A DNA stretch of 37,247 bases. It comes from Thermoplasmata archaeon (lineage in GTDB: Archaea > Thermoplasmatota > Thermoplasmata > Thermoplasmatales > GCA-001856825). The position numbers and the translations under genes were made by a program. Below the pieces are notes generated by a model, which worked only from the letters and a program-made list of their open reading frames with translations, ran no database searches and was not told where the DNA came from. Location of the stretch: contig JAKATW010000030.1 in assembly GCA_021827945.1 (NCBI GenBank), positions 1 to 37,247 on the forward strand. Direction: 5' to 3'. This document shows, one piece after another, positions 31,279 through 33,429 of the stretch (positions are counted from its first letter, which is position 1; every line of letters starts with the position of its first letter).

Positions 31279-31971
31279 TCAGATGGCCTTCGCCCTCACT
31301 ATCAGTTTCTCCGATTCTAATTCCAGGGGGGAGAGATCATAGTCGCCAAAAGTCCCATCAACCTCAAAATTCTCTGAAGTCAACATCTCCCTCAGCTCTT
31401 CTGGAGTTATGGGATAAATGGTTATAGTCTTTTCCACGCTTCTCTTGGTCTGATCGAAAATGCTGTATGAGTACCTGAGCTGGTAACGGTCCCTCAGTCT
31501 CCTCGCCTTCATCTTGAGTGAAATCTCGGTCCTGCCGTCGTTGAACTTTGAGATATCGTATGTTCCTCTCCTTAGCGTGAAACCATTGATGATGTCGACG
31601 AAAAGGAACCCATTCCTGTTCAGGACTCTTCTGGCCTCACTCAGTATCGATTTTTTCTGCTCGTTTGGAACCAGCAGCAAGCTGTTCAGCCCTATGATCA
31701 CGGTGTTGAAGTATTTCTTGAATGGAAGCGTTCTCGCATCTCCCATTACCTTTATAAAGGAGTTGACTGACTTCCTGAGCATGTTGGGATTGATCTCTAG
31801 TCCAATGCCTCCATTGAATTTTGAAATTATCCTCCCAGTACCTGCAAATATCTCCAGATAAGGTGGGGTTGCTGACATAGACTTGTAGAAGGATATGTCT
31901 TGGCTGAATATGCCGTATATCTTGTCATAGTATGTCGATTCGAAATCATAGAAATCTTCAATTTCCCTCAT
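31279..31971 (-). CDS. SAM-dependent class I methyltransferase
   Basis: The 230-aa protein has motif I YLEIFAGTGRIISKF, an acidic end of strand 2 (GIGLEINPNML), MGDARTLPF as motif III and VIIGLNSLLLV, followed by LNRNGFLFVDIINGF. This is a Rossmann-fold methyltransferase with substrate unknown. The C-terminal part is strand-rich (RYSYSIFDQTKRSVEKTITIYPITPEEL). The ATG overlaps the stop of the adenosine-specific kinase family gene (ATGA), and the Toprim gene follows 16 nt later, so one operon joins three possibly nucleotide- or RNA-related functions. Confidence 0.88.
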   Translation of the reverse strand: MREIEDFYDFESTYYDKIYGIFSQDISFYKSMSATPPYLEIFAGTGRIISKFNGGIGLEINPNMLRKSVNSFIKVMGDARTLPFKKYFNTVIIGLNSLLLVPNEQKKSILSEARRVLNRNGFLFVDIINGFTLRRGTYDISKFNDGRTEISLKMKARRLRDRYQLRYSYSIFDQTKRSVEKTITIYPITPEELREMLTSENFEVDGTFGDYDLSPLELESEKLIVRAKAI

Positions 31972-32447
31972 CGTTTATATCCTATATCCCTCAGAAATTT
32001 CTTTCTCTCTTCAATGTCTCCGATCTTTTCAACACCAAGGGGTCTCTCTCCATCCAGTACTCCCATGACGCCCCTCCGATCTCCCTCCTCTGCAACAACA
32101 ACTGATAGGGGGTTGGAGGTCGCGGCGTAAAGATTGAGCACTTCTGGAATGTTCCTGATGTGCGGAATCGCGTTGATGGGGAATGAATCCTTAAGGTGTA
32201 CAATGAATACGTGACCGCTACCGAGTTTTTCTGCATTCTTGACTGCACGTTTTATGAGGACTTCATCGTTTCCGTCGAATCTGATCAACCTCCTTCCCGA
32301 TGCCTCGCAGAAGGCTATTCCGAACGTGGCAGTCGGAGACGAGTTCTTGATAGCCTCGTACAGGTCTTCCACCGACTTGATGAAGTGAGACTGTCCAAGG
32401 ATTACATTCTCATCTTCCTTTTCGATGTCTACAACTGAAAAATTCAC
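31968..32447 (-). CDS. Adenosine-specific kinase family protein (PF04008, DUF355)
   Basis: The 159-aa protein matches the archaeal family with sequence features GQSHFIKSVEDLYEAI, FGIAFCEASGRRLIRFDGND, GHVFIVHLKDSFPINAI, NIPEVLNLYAATSNPLSVVVAE and the C-terminal GVMGVLDGERPLGVE. The Pfam family is called adenosine-specific kinase after a structural study of a Pyrobaculum homologue; its physiological role is unsettled. The start is GTG, which lies 26 nt from a palindromic TATA box, so the transcript is leaderless. It is the first gene of the operon with the methyltransferase and Toprim genes. Confidence 0.9.
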   Translation of the reverse strand: MNFSVVDIEKEDENVILGQSHFIKSVEDLYEAIKNSSPTATFGIAFCEASGRRLIRFDGNDEVLIKRAVKNAEKLGSGHVFIVHLKDSFPINAIPHIRNIPEVLNLYAATSNPLSVVVAEEGDRRGVMGVLDGERPLGVEKIGDIEERKKFLRDIGYKR

Positions 32448-32468
32448 TAATTATCAATGAATACACAC

Positions 32469-32478
32469 ATAAATTTAT
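32469..32478. promoter_or_regulatory. Bidirectional palindromic TATA box
   Basis: ATAAATTTAT is its own reverse complement. It is centred 26-28 nt from GTG codons on both sides: 32447 on the minus strand and 32502 on the plus strand. One element could therefore drive two divergent leaderless genes. Confidence 0.55.
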
Positions 32479-32501
32479 TTTCCTTGTCGAGATTGAAAGG
32501 A

Positions 32502-32849
32502 GTGAAGGCTTTACTTGTGAGAAGAGAGCGAGTAAGGGAAGTCAGGGACGGCCTAATTTCCATGGGGATTGAGTTTTACGAGGAGAGGGACAATTTTCAC
32601 TTCCTGTTCATATTTCCAGAATTGAAGGAGAGCACGGGCTTGAATGGCAAAGTCTGCTATTTAGTGAGTGAAGAAATAGGGGAGGTCAGTACTTCTGGGA
32701 GCACATTCAAGATCGAAGGTCCAAGAGACGCCATTAACCTCTTCGCCCCCCTGTTCGAAAAAAGAGGCTTGAAGGCCAGGATGGAGAACCCTGAGAACCT
32801 GATAGAAATAAAGAAATGGGGGACTAAGTACCTGATCAGTGTCGCCTGA
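32502..32849 (+). CDS. Small alpha/beta protein, unrecognised
   Basis: With the GTG at 32502 as start the protein has 115 aa and begins with a beta strand (KALLVRRERVREVRDGLISMG). The track start at 32457 lies upstream of the palindromic TATA box and would need a different promoter. Content: a strand-helix-strand opening, FHFLFIFPEL, GKVCYLVSEEIGE, then a helical FAPLFEKRGLKARM and a final strand. The opening loosely recalls the small N-terminal domain of archaeal Trm5 tRNA methyltransferases, but the catalytic domain is absent, so no function is assigned. Its 3' end overlaps the convergent L15e gene by 14 nt. Confidence 0.65.
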   Translation: MKALLVRRERVREVRDGLISMGIEFYEERDNFHFLFIFPELKESTGLNGKVCYLVSEEIGEVSTSGSTFKIEGPRDAINLFAPLFEKRGLKARMENPENLIEIKKWGTKYLISVA

Positions 32850-33429
32850 GTCTTCCTTTCGCCCTGATAGATGGCCTGGATTTCACTGATCCCTTTCCCT
32901 TAGTTGCAAGTCCTCTCGCTTTCTTGCCTGCAGTTGACAGACCCCTGTAGACTCTTCCTTTTTGGGCCCGGTCTGCAGTCCAGTTGAGGTTCTTGTCGTT
33001 TGTAATGGAGGGATTAGTGGGATCAACAAACATCACTTCGTAGAACTTGTTTTTCCCATCTTCAGCCAGATAGTATGAGTTTAGGAGAACTAGGTTTGGA
33101 TATCTCCTCTGGGCCCTCTCTTCCGCGATCCACTTCTCACTCTTTCCGTGAGTGAGCTTGTTGTAACCGTATCTTCTGGGCCTTCTGCCACCCATAATCT
33201 TGGGCTTGTGGAGTCCCCCTCTCCTCACCTTGACCCTTGCAACAACAAATCCTGGTTTTGCTTTGTATCCGAGTGCCCTAGCCCTCGATAATTTTGTTGG
33301 TGTGGATATTCTCTCTACTGTTCCTGATGCTCTCCATTCTGTCATTCTCTTTCGGACTATCCCTTTCATCTCTTCCTTTGCAGTGAGAAAGTTTTCAGAC
33401 TGGAACGAATAACTACTTTTTGAGGGCAA
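32836..33429 (-). CDS. rpl15e: Ribosomal protein L15e
   Basis: The 197-aa protein is the archaeal/eukaryotic large-subunit protein L15e. Motifs RARALGYKAKPGFVVARVKVRRGG, KPKIMGGRRPRRYGYNKL, EERAQRRYPNLVLLNSYYLAEDGK and YRGLSTAGKKARGL are diagnostic. It binds 23S rRNA. The start is TTG: GGTGA lies 6 nt upstream of it, and the N-terminus (SYSFQSENFLTAKEEMKG) aligns with the usual family start, whereas the first ATG, 20 codons in, would delete a conserved helix. Confidence 0.96.
   Translation of the reverse strand: MPSKSSYSFQSENFLTAKEEMKGIVRKRMTEWRASGTVERISTPTKLSRARALGYKAKPGFVVARVKVRRGGLHKPKIMGGRRPRRYGYNKLTHGKSEKWIAEERAQRRYPNLVLLNSYYLAEDGKNKFYEVMFVDPTNPSITNDKNLNWTADRAQKGRVYRGLSTAGKKARGLATKGKGSVKSRPSIRAKGRLRRH

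Follow-up and report, generated by a model that had tools for sequence, protein, structure and literature searches.

Bidirectional TATA boxes in archaea have mostly been linked to antisense noise. Two-way archaeal promoters are already known, and the locus analysed here is probably a clean, conserved example. The closest described system is that of Pyrococcus furiosus, where one TATA box initiates transcription both ways in vitro, with starts 49 bp apart, and where the second transcript is antisense and thought to be non-functional (PMC6640164). The BRE of these promoters is RRAAA at −36 to −32, the TATA box lies at −30 to −23, and the antisense BRE is the weaker of the two (PMC6640164). Divergent promoters that arise from symmetry of the DNA sequence have also been reported for bacteria and archaea (Warman et al. 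2021, Nat Microbiol, cited in PMC10268837). Symmetry of the core element is reported to allow two-way initiation there, as it may here, but the bacterial cases depend on a −10 element and their starts are usually separated by 18 bp, whereas at our locus the spacing is that of TATA/TFB promoters. On archaeal pairs of coding genes with one common TATA box, we found nothing in open-licence papers beyond PMC6640164.

The locus lies in a contig of 37,247 nucleotides from a Thermoplasmata archaeon, which we call the window. A palindromic TATA box, ATAAATTTAT (32469–32478), reads the same on both strands and is common to the predicted promoters of two divergent genes. From its centre at 32473.5 it is 26.5 nt to the GTG start codon at 32447 of a minus-strand gene (31968–32447) and 28.5 nt to a GTG at 32502, where a gene for a protein of 115 aa starts on the plus strand (32502–32849; the plus gene below). 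The first-pass annotation had given these distances as 26 and 28 nt, which agrees with our measurement from the centre. It had also assigned the minus-strand product to the adenosine-specific kinase family, and the match to PF04008 confirms this (216.6 bits against a cut-off of 25, E = 1.9e-64, residues 9–158).

Like the BRE-TATA-BRE promoters of P. furiosus (PMC6640164), the locus combines a near-symmetric TATA box, divergent starts about 50 bp apart and a potential for orientation through TFB and BRE, although the starts compared are in our case start codons. On the kinase side, the window carries GGAAA (32479–32483, minus strand) exactly at the published BRE position of −36 to −32, counted with +1 at the first base of the GTG at 32447. 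Unlike in P. furiosus, both sides lead straight into conserved coding genes that are apparently leaderless, the plus-side BRE is weak and initiation is predicted from sequence. What differs here is the presence of coding genes on both sides and their family-wide conservation, as opposed to the antisense partner in P. furiosus. Leaderless coding genes on both sides would leave hardly any space for separate promoters or for long leaders.

A protein search found the plus protein in 15 of 61 genomes. All 15 belong to one family of uncultured Thermoplasmata that includes I-plasma (ATMD01000001); 11 of them fall in one genus and four come from three other genera. When 13 genomes from other families were searched with a profile of the plus family, no convincing member turned up. 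The plus-strand frame in the window is open from an ATG at 32457, which would give a protein of 130 aa, and the start at 32502 is an internal GTG. That the start should be shifted from 32457 to 32502 had been proposed before, and the comparison of homologues strongly supports it, with no conserved residues between the two positions. In the locus alignment, position 32502 is GTG or ATG in 15 of 15 genomes, and in 12 of 15 a stop codon lies in frame between the 32457 position and this codon. The frame is open over the whole stretch only in the window genome, L002 and L003. Pairwise differences among eight congeners without indels, counted by codon position, are flat upstream of 32502 (0.19/0.20/0.17) and periodic downstream of it (0.23/0.15/0.53). 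One could argue that the gene nevertheless starts at the ATG, since the window genome and L002 have both the open frame and the ATG. We consider this next to impossible, given the stops in the other 12 genomes, the missing ATG in L003 and the absence of coding periodicity before 32502. The ATG would also fall within the promoter. From the alignment, we judge that the old N-terminal extension (32457–32501) is not protein but non-coding promoter DNA.

Promoters were scored with a BRE and TATA motif learned from 430 genes that come first in their transcription units, called on 0.8 Mb of two congeners and on the window contig, with the window's copy of the locus excluded. The learned motif is approximately RAAA-nn-TTTWWATA. 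Half of the positional mass of its starts falls at −36 to −34, which is the leaderless position. In the window genome the motif scores 8.7 for the kinase, at −36, and 6.8 for the plus gene, at −34; among shuffled upstream regions 4.4% reach a score of 6 and 2.3% reach 7. In all 15 family genomes, including L014 and L015, which are without the palindrome, a score of at least 6.75 is reached in each direction, and the positions of the two overlap. When all plus-strand sites within 250 nt are ranked, the shared element comes first in the window genome and first or second in every one of the 15, and it stands at leaderless spacing from the plus start codon in all of them. The best plus motif shifts to −44 in L005–L007, and in L014 a site at −54 scores slightly above the shared element. 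The anatomy of the locus, its conserved start codons and spacings and the promoter-model scores on the two strands are observations. The earlier proposal of one TATA box common to both genes is well supported by the comparison of genomes and by these scores.

In the window genome both the kinase and the plus gene have a TATA box about 26 nt before the start and no Shine-Dalgarno sequence, and both are predicted to be leaderless. For the kinase, a motif resembling a Shine-Dalgarno sequence is absent upstream in all 15 family genomes. For the plus gene, the window genome has no usable one. The candidate AAAGGAGTG was rejected because its GGAG runs into the start codon and is not conserved among relatives. 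A GAGG does occur upstream of the plus start in some relatives (L005–L007, L009 and L014).

The palindrome ATAAATTTAT is exact in 10 of the 15 family genomes, among them members of two other genera. Three genomes have ATAAACTTAT instead and two have a different AT-rich element. Where the palindrome is lost (L005–L007 and L014/L015), an AT-rich element that scores both ways stays in place; in L005–L007 a 3-nt insertion makes the AT-rich stretch longer and changes the best registers. The distance from start to start is 52–58 bp in all 15 genomes (mostly 55, 58 in L005–L007 and 52 in L014/L015), which is consistent with a transcription-start spacing of about 50 bp if both genes are leaderless. 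In other families of the order no plus gene was found, and none of 55 kinase upstream regions taken from them contains the palindrome; most of these regions keep a leaderless BRE-TATA. A score of at least 6.75 on the opposite strand is found in 34% of these kinase promoters compared with 15 of 15 in the family; the corresponding rank-test values of 4e-6 and 2e-4 are only indicative because of the relatedness within the family.

Another line of evidence is the conservation of the element itself. Between congeners, a 16-nt promoter window is identical at 16 of 16 positions, and the single-direction TATA boxes in the neighbouring L15e intergenic region have drifted. Such identity is equalled in only three of 37 other orthologue comparisons; these three are the reason why we reject conservation of the element as a stand-alone proof of dual use. 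The kinase promoter by itself could account for this strong conservation, and the sequences are not phylogenetically independent of each other. Taken together, the aligned sequences fit a double constraint but fall short of proving one. In the stretch between the TATA box and the kinase start (32450–32468), parts of the sequence (TTATCAAT and CAC) are invariant in the genus, which possibly marks a melting region or the site of a regulator.

It would be tempting to base the argument on the rarity of the palindrome. ATAAATTTAT has a single copy in the window, where 0.06 copies are expected by shuffling. The genome of 1.83 Mb contains eight copies, compared with four of a control pattern (the same letters read backwards), and several of the eight lie upstream of single genes. 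The idea that a palindromic TATA box is rare in itself was rejected for this reason. Symmetric TATA boxes are in fact common: in 23% of 160 leaderless promoters from relatives the opposite strand scores at least as high. However, only one of the eight genomic copies, that at 32469–32478, is flanked on either side by a gene start at promoter distance. What does stand above chance in the alignments is the fixed spacing of the TATA box to two conserved start codons across 15 genomes.

We think it probable that a single bidirectional archaeal core promoter serves both genes. TBP would bind the symmetric TATA box at 32469–32478, and TFB, guided by the flanking BRE, would set the orientation of the complex. 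In one orientation a leaderless transcript would begin at or near the kinase GTG at 32447. In the other a transcript from about 32500–32502, effectively leaderless, would encode the 115-aa THUMP-like protein. The TBP and TFB footprints of the two directions would overlap, and hence direct competition is to be expected: two pre-initiation complexes on the same DNA would exclude each other on one DNA molecule. Competition between the directions, which the first-pass annotation had suggested, is thus a reasonable prediction. That transcription starts in both directions, that the two starts exclude each other and that one of them is favoured, as described below, we infer from the observations given above.

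The two directions are likely to be unequal, judging from their flanks. The position of the plus-direction BRE is occupied in the window by CACAC (32464–32468, plus strand), and in most congeners too the sequence there differs from RRAAA. Since a consensus BRE is present only on the kinase side, initiation is predicted to be kinase-biased in the genus, with GGAAA leading to more kinase than plus-gene initiation. This asymmetry between GGAAA and CACAC had been overlooked in the earlier reading of the locus. The plus flank is better in L009, L012 and L013, where plus scores of 8.6–9.5 are nearly equal to those of the kinase. Hence, the bias may have shifted within the family. The locus could serve as a minimal natural system in which to ask how the strength of the BRE determines direction and whether two genes compete for one TATA box.

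Several properties count against a shared promoter, namely the weak plus BRE in the genus, a spacing from TATA box to plus start that is 2 nt longer than that of the kinase, the loss of the palindrome in L005–L007 and L014/L015, and the other best plus sites in L005–L007 and L014. One could argue that the TATA box serves the kinase only, that its symmetry is incidental and that the plus gene is expressed as a leadered transcript from a weaker upstream promoter, which might lie near −52 or within the kinase gene. This would agree with the restriction of the consensus BRE to the kinase side and with the proportion of unrelated leaderless promoters, given above, that are equally good on the reverse strand. 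Alternative plus sites do exist near −52 to −54 in L003, L010, L011 and L014 (scores 6.0–8.1) and at −163 in L010 (score 7.9). Nevertheless, we regard it as quite unlikely. In the window genome, no plus-strand site within 250 nt outranks the shared element, whose leaderless spacing is kept throughout the family. A usable Shine-Dalgarno sequence is missing in that genome, and kinase promoters in other families lack the palindrome.

It is also conceivable that two distinct TATA elements overlap, one per direction and a few bases apart. In the window, the best registers for the two directions lie about 5 nt apart; they also differ after the 3-nt insertion in L005–L007, and the two start spacings (26.5 versus 28.5 nt) are unequal. 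Yet L013 speaks for a single element: its palindrome lies exactly 21 nt from each start, if the kinase begins at an ATG that lies 3 bases upstream of where the alignment would place its start, and it scores 9.5 in both directions. Given that the palindrome is also intact in 10 of 15 genomes, two separate elements seem quite unlikely to us.

What the plus protein might do is suggested mainly by its predicted structure. The AlphaFold model, built from 15 sequences, reaches a pLDDT of 89.6, although only two of five models are this confident. Nearly all of the top Foldseek matches are THUMP enzymes (4-thiouridine synthetase, Trm11, PH1313, Trm14 and archaeal tRNA cytidine deaminase) with E values of 1.5e-4 to 2e-2, but with TM-scores of 0.5–0.67 and an rmsd of about 5 Å. 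The window protein has no match to the Pfam THUMP domain (PF02926) over the curated cut-off; weak matches to it occur in seven of 15 family members (best E 0.001), and a PDB sequence search with the plus-family profile gave nothing credible. A likeness to the N-terminal domain of Trm5 was rejected as the best fold match because THUMP enzymes rank far ahead of it in Foldseek. The plus protein is a probable stand-alone THUMP-like protein, which would probably bind RNA and act as a partner in tRNA modification. Our analysis yields a corrected start codon and, for an unnamed protein family, a probable THUMP-like (RNA-binding) identity. On the other side of the promoter, a class I methyltransferase gene (31279–31971, minus strand) follows the kinase gene with an overlap of 4 nt. 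This order is kept at all 15 family loci, and the methyltransferase is probably co-transcribed with the kinase from the shared promoter.

Is this arrangement unique in the family? We scanned 1.4 Mb with 207 divergent pairs, using simple gene models, for starts 40–64 bp apart with overlapping promoters. The scan gave 12 candidates, three of which are the kinase/plus locus in three genomes. In the relative G006, seven of 146 divergent pairs (about 5%) are candidates. Candidate pairs whose predicted promoters overlap on one element lie at G006:C1:511165-511216, G006:C4:346053-346108 and G010:C7:315547-315603, all with starts taken from the simple gene models. They include a 12-bp palindrome, ATAAATATTTAT, before pyrB in G006; from reading the sequence, we take its flanking genes to be an asparaginase-like gene and pyrB.

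The clearest other case, conserved in the family, is that of alaS and a gene for a GCD14/TrmI-like methyltransferase, which diverge with GTG and GTG from one AT-rich AATTTAAAATAG element (L156–L169) and have promoters predicted on both strands. Their modelled starts are 47 bp apart in 12 genomes, including the window's own genome (L157, G000:C161 near 17.9 kb), and 46 bp apart in L168 and L169 if alaS begins in these two at the GTG that lies six bases upstream of its extrapolated start. Outside the family, this divergent neighbour of alaS was not found. This pair resembles the kinase/plus locus in its single AT-rich element, its two GTG codons and its conservation within the family. It differs in that AATTTAAAATAG is only near-symmetric and in that the spacing is 8 bp shorter. 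One might speculate that, in this family of I-plasma relatives, selection has repeatedly favoured single TATA boxes shared between two leaderless coding genes, a design that would couple or trade off the expression of pairs that are often tRNA-related (THUMP-like, alaS/TrmI-like) through mutually exclusive loading of TBP and TFB. We hold this generalization to be doubtful at present.

A few further observations concern start codons and neighbouring genes. Nearly every genome of the genus has GTG at all four starts of the kinase/plus and alaS/TrmI-like pairs, with an ATG for the kinase in L009, although GTG starts occur in only about 14% of gene models in the genus. G006 and G010 contain several divergent leaderless pairs with starts 81–84 bp apart and with about 30 bp between their two TATA boxes, which may point to a second preferred arrangement. 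The gene for ribosomal protein L15e (32836–33429, minus strand) has a TTG start, as it does at 12 of the 13 loci checked, with GTG at the remaining one. Upstream of it are AAAGGTGA and a TATA box near −51; hence, this gene appears to be leadered with a Shine-Dalgarno sequence, unlike its neighbours. The plus gene and the L15e gene are convergent, and their 3′ ends overlap by 14 nt (32836–32849).
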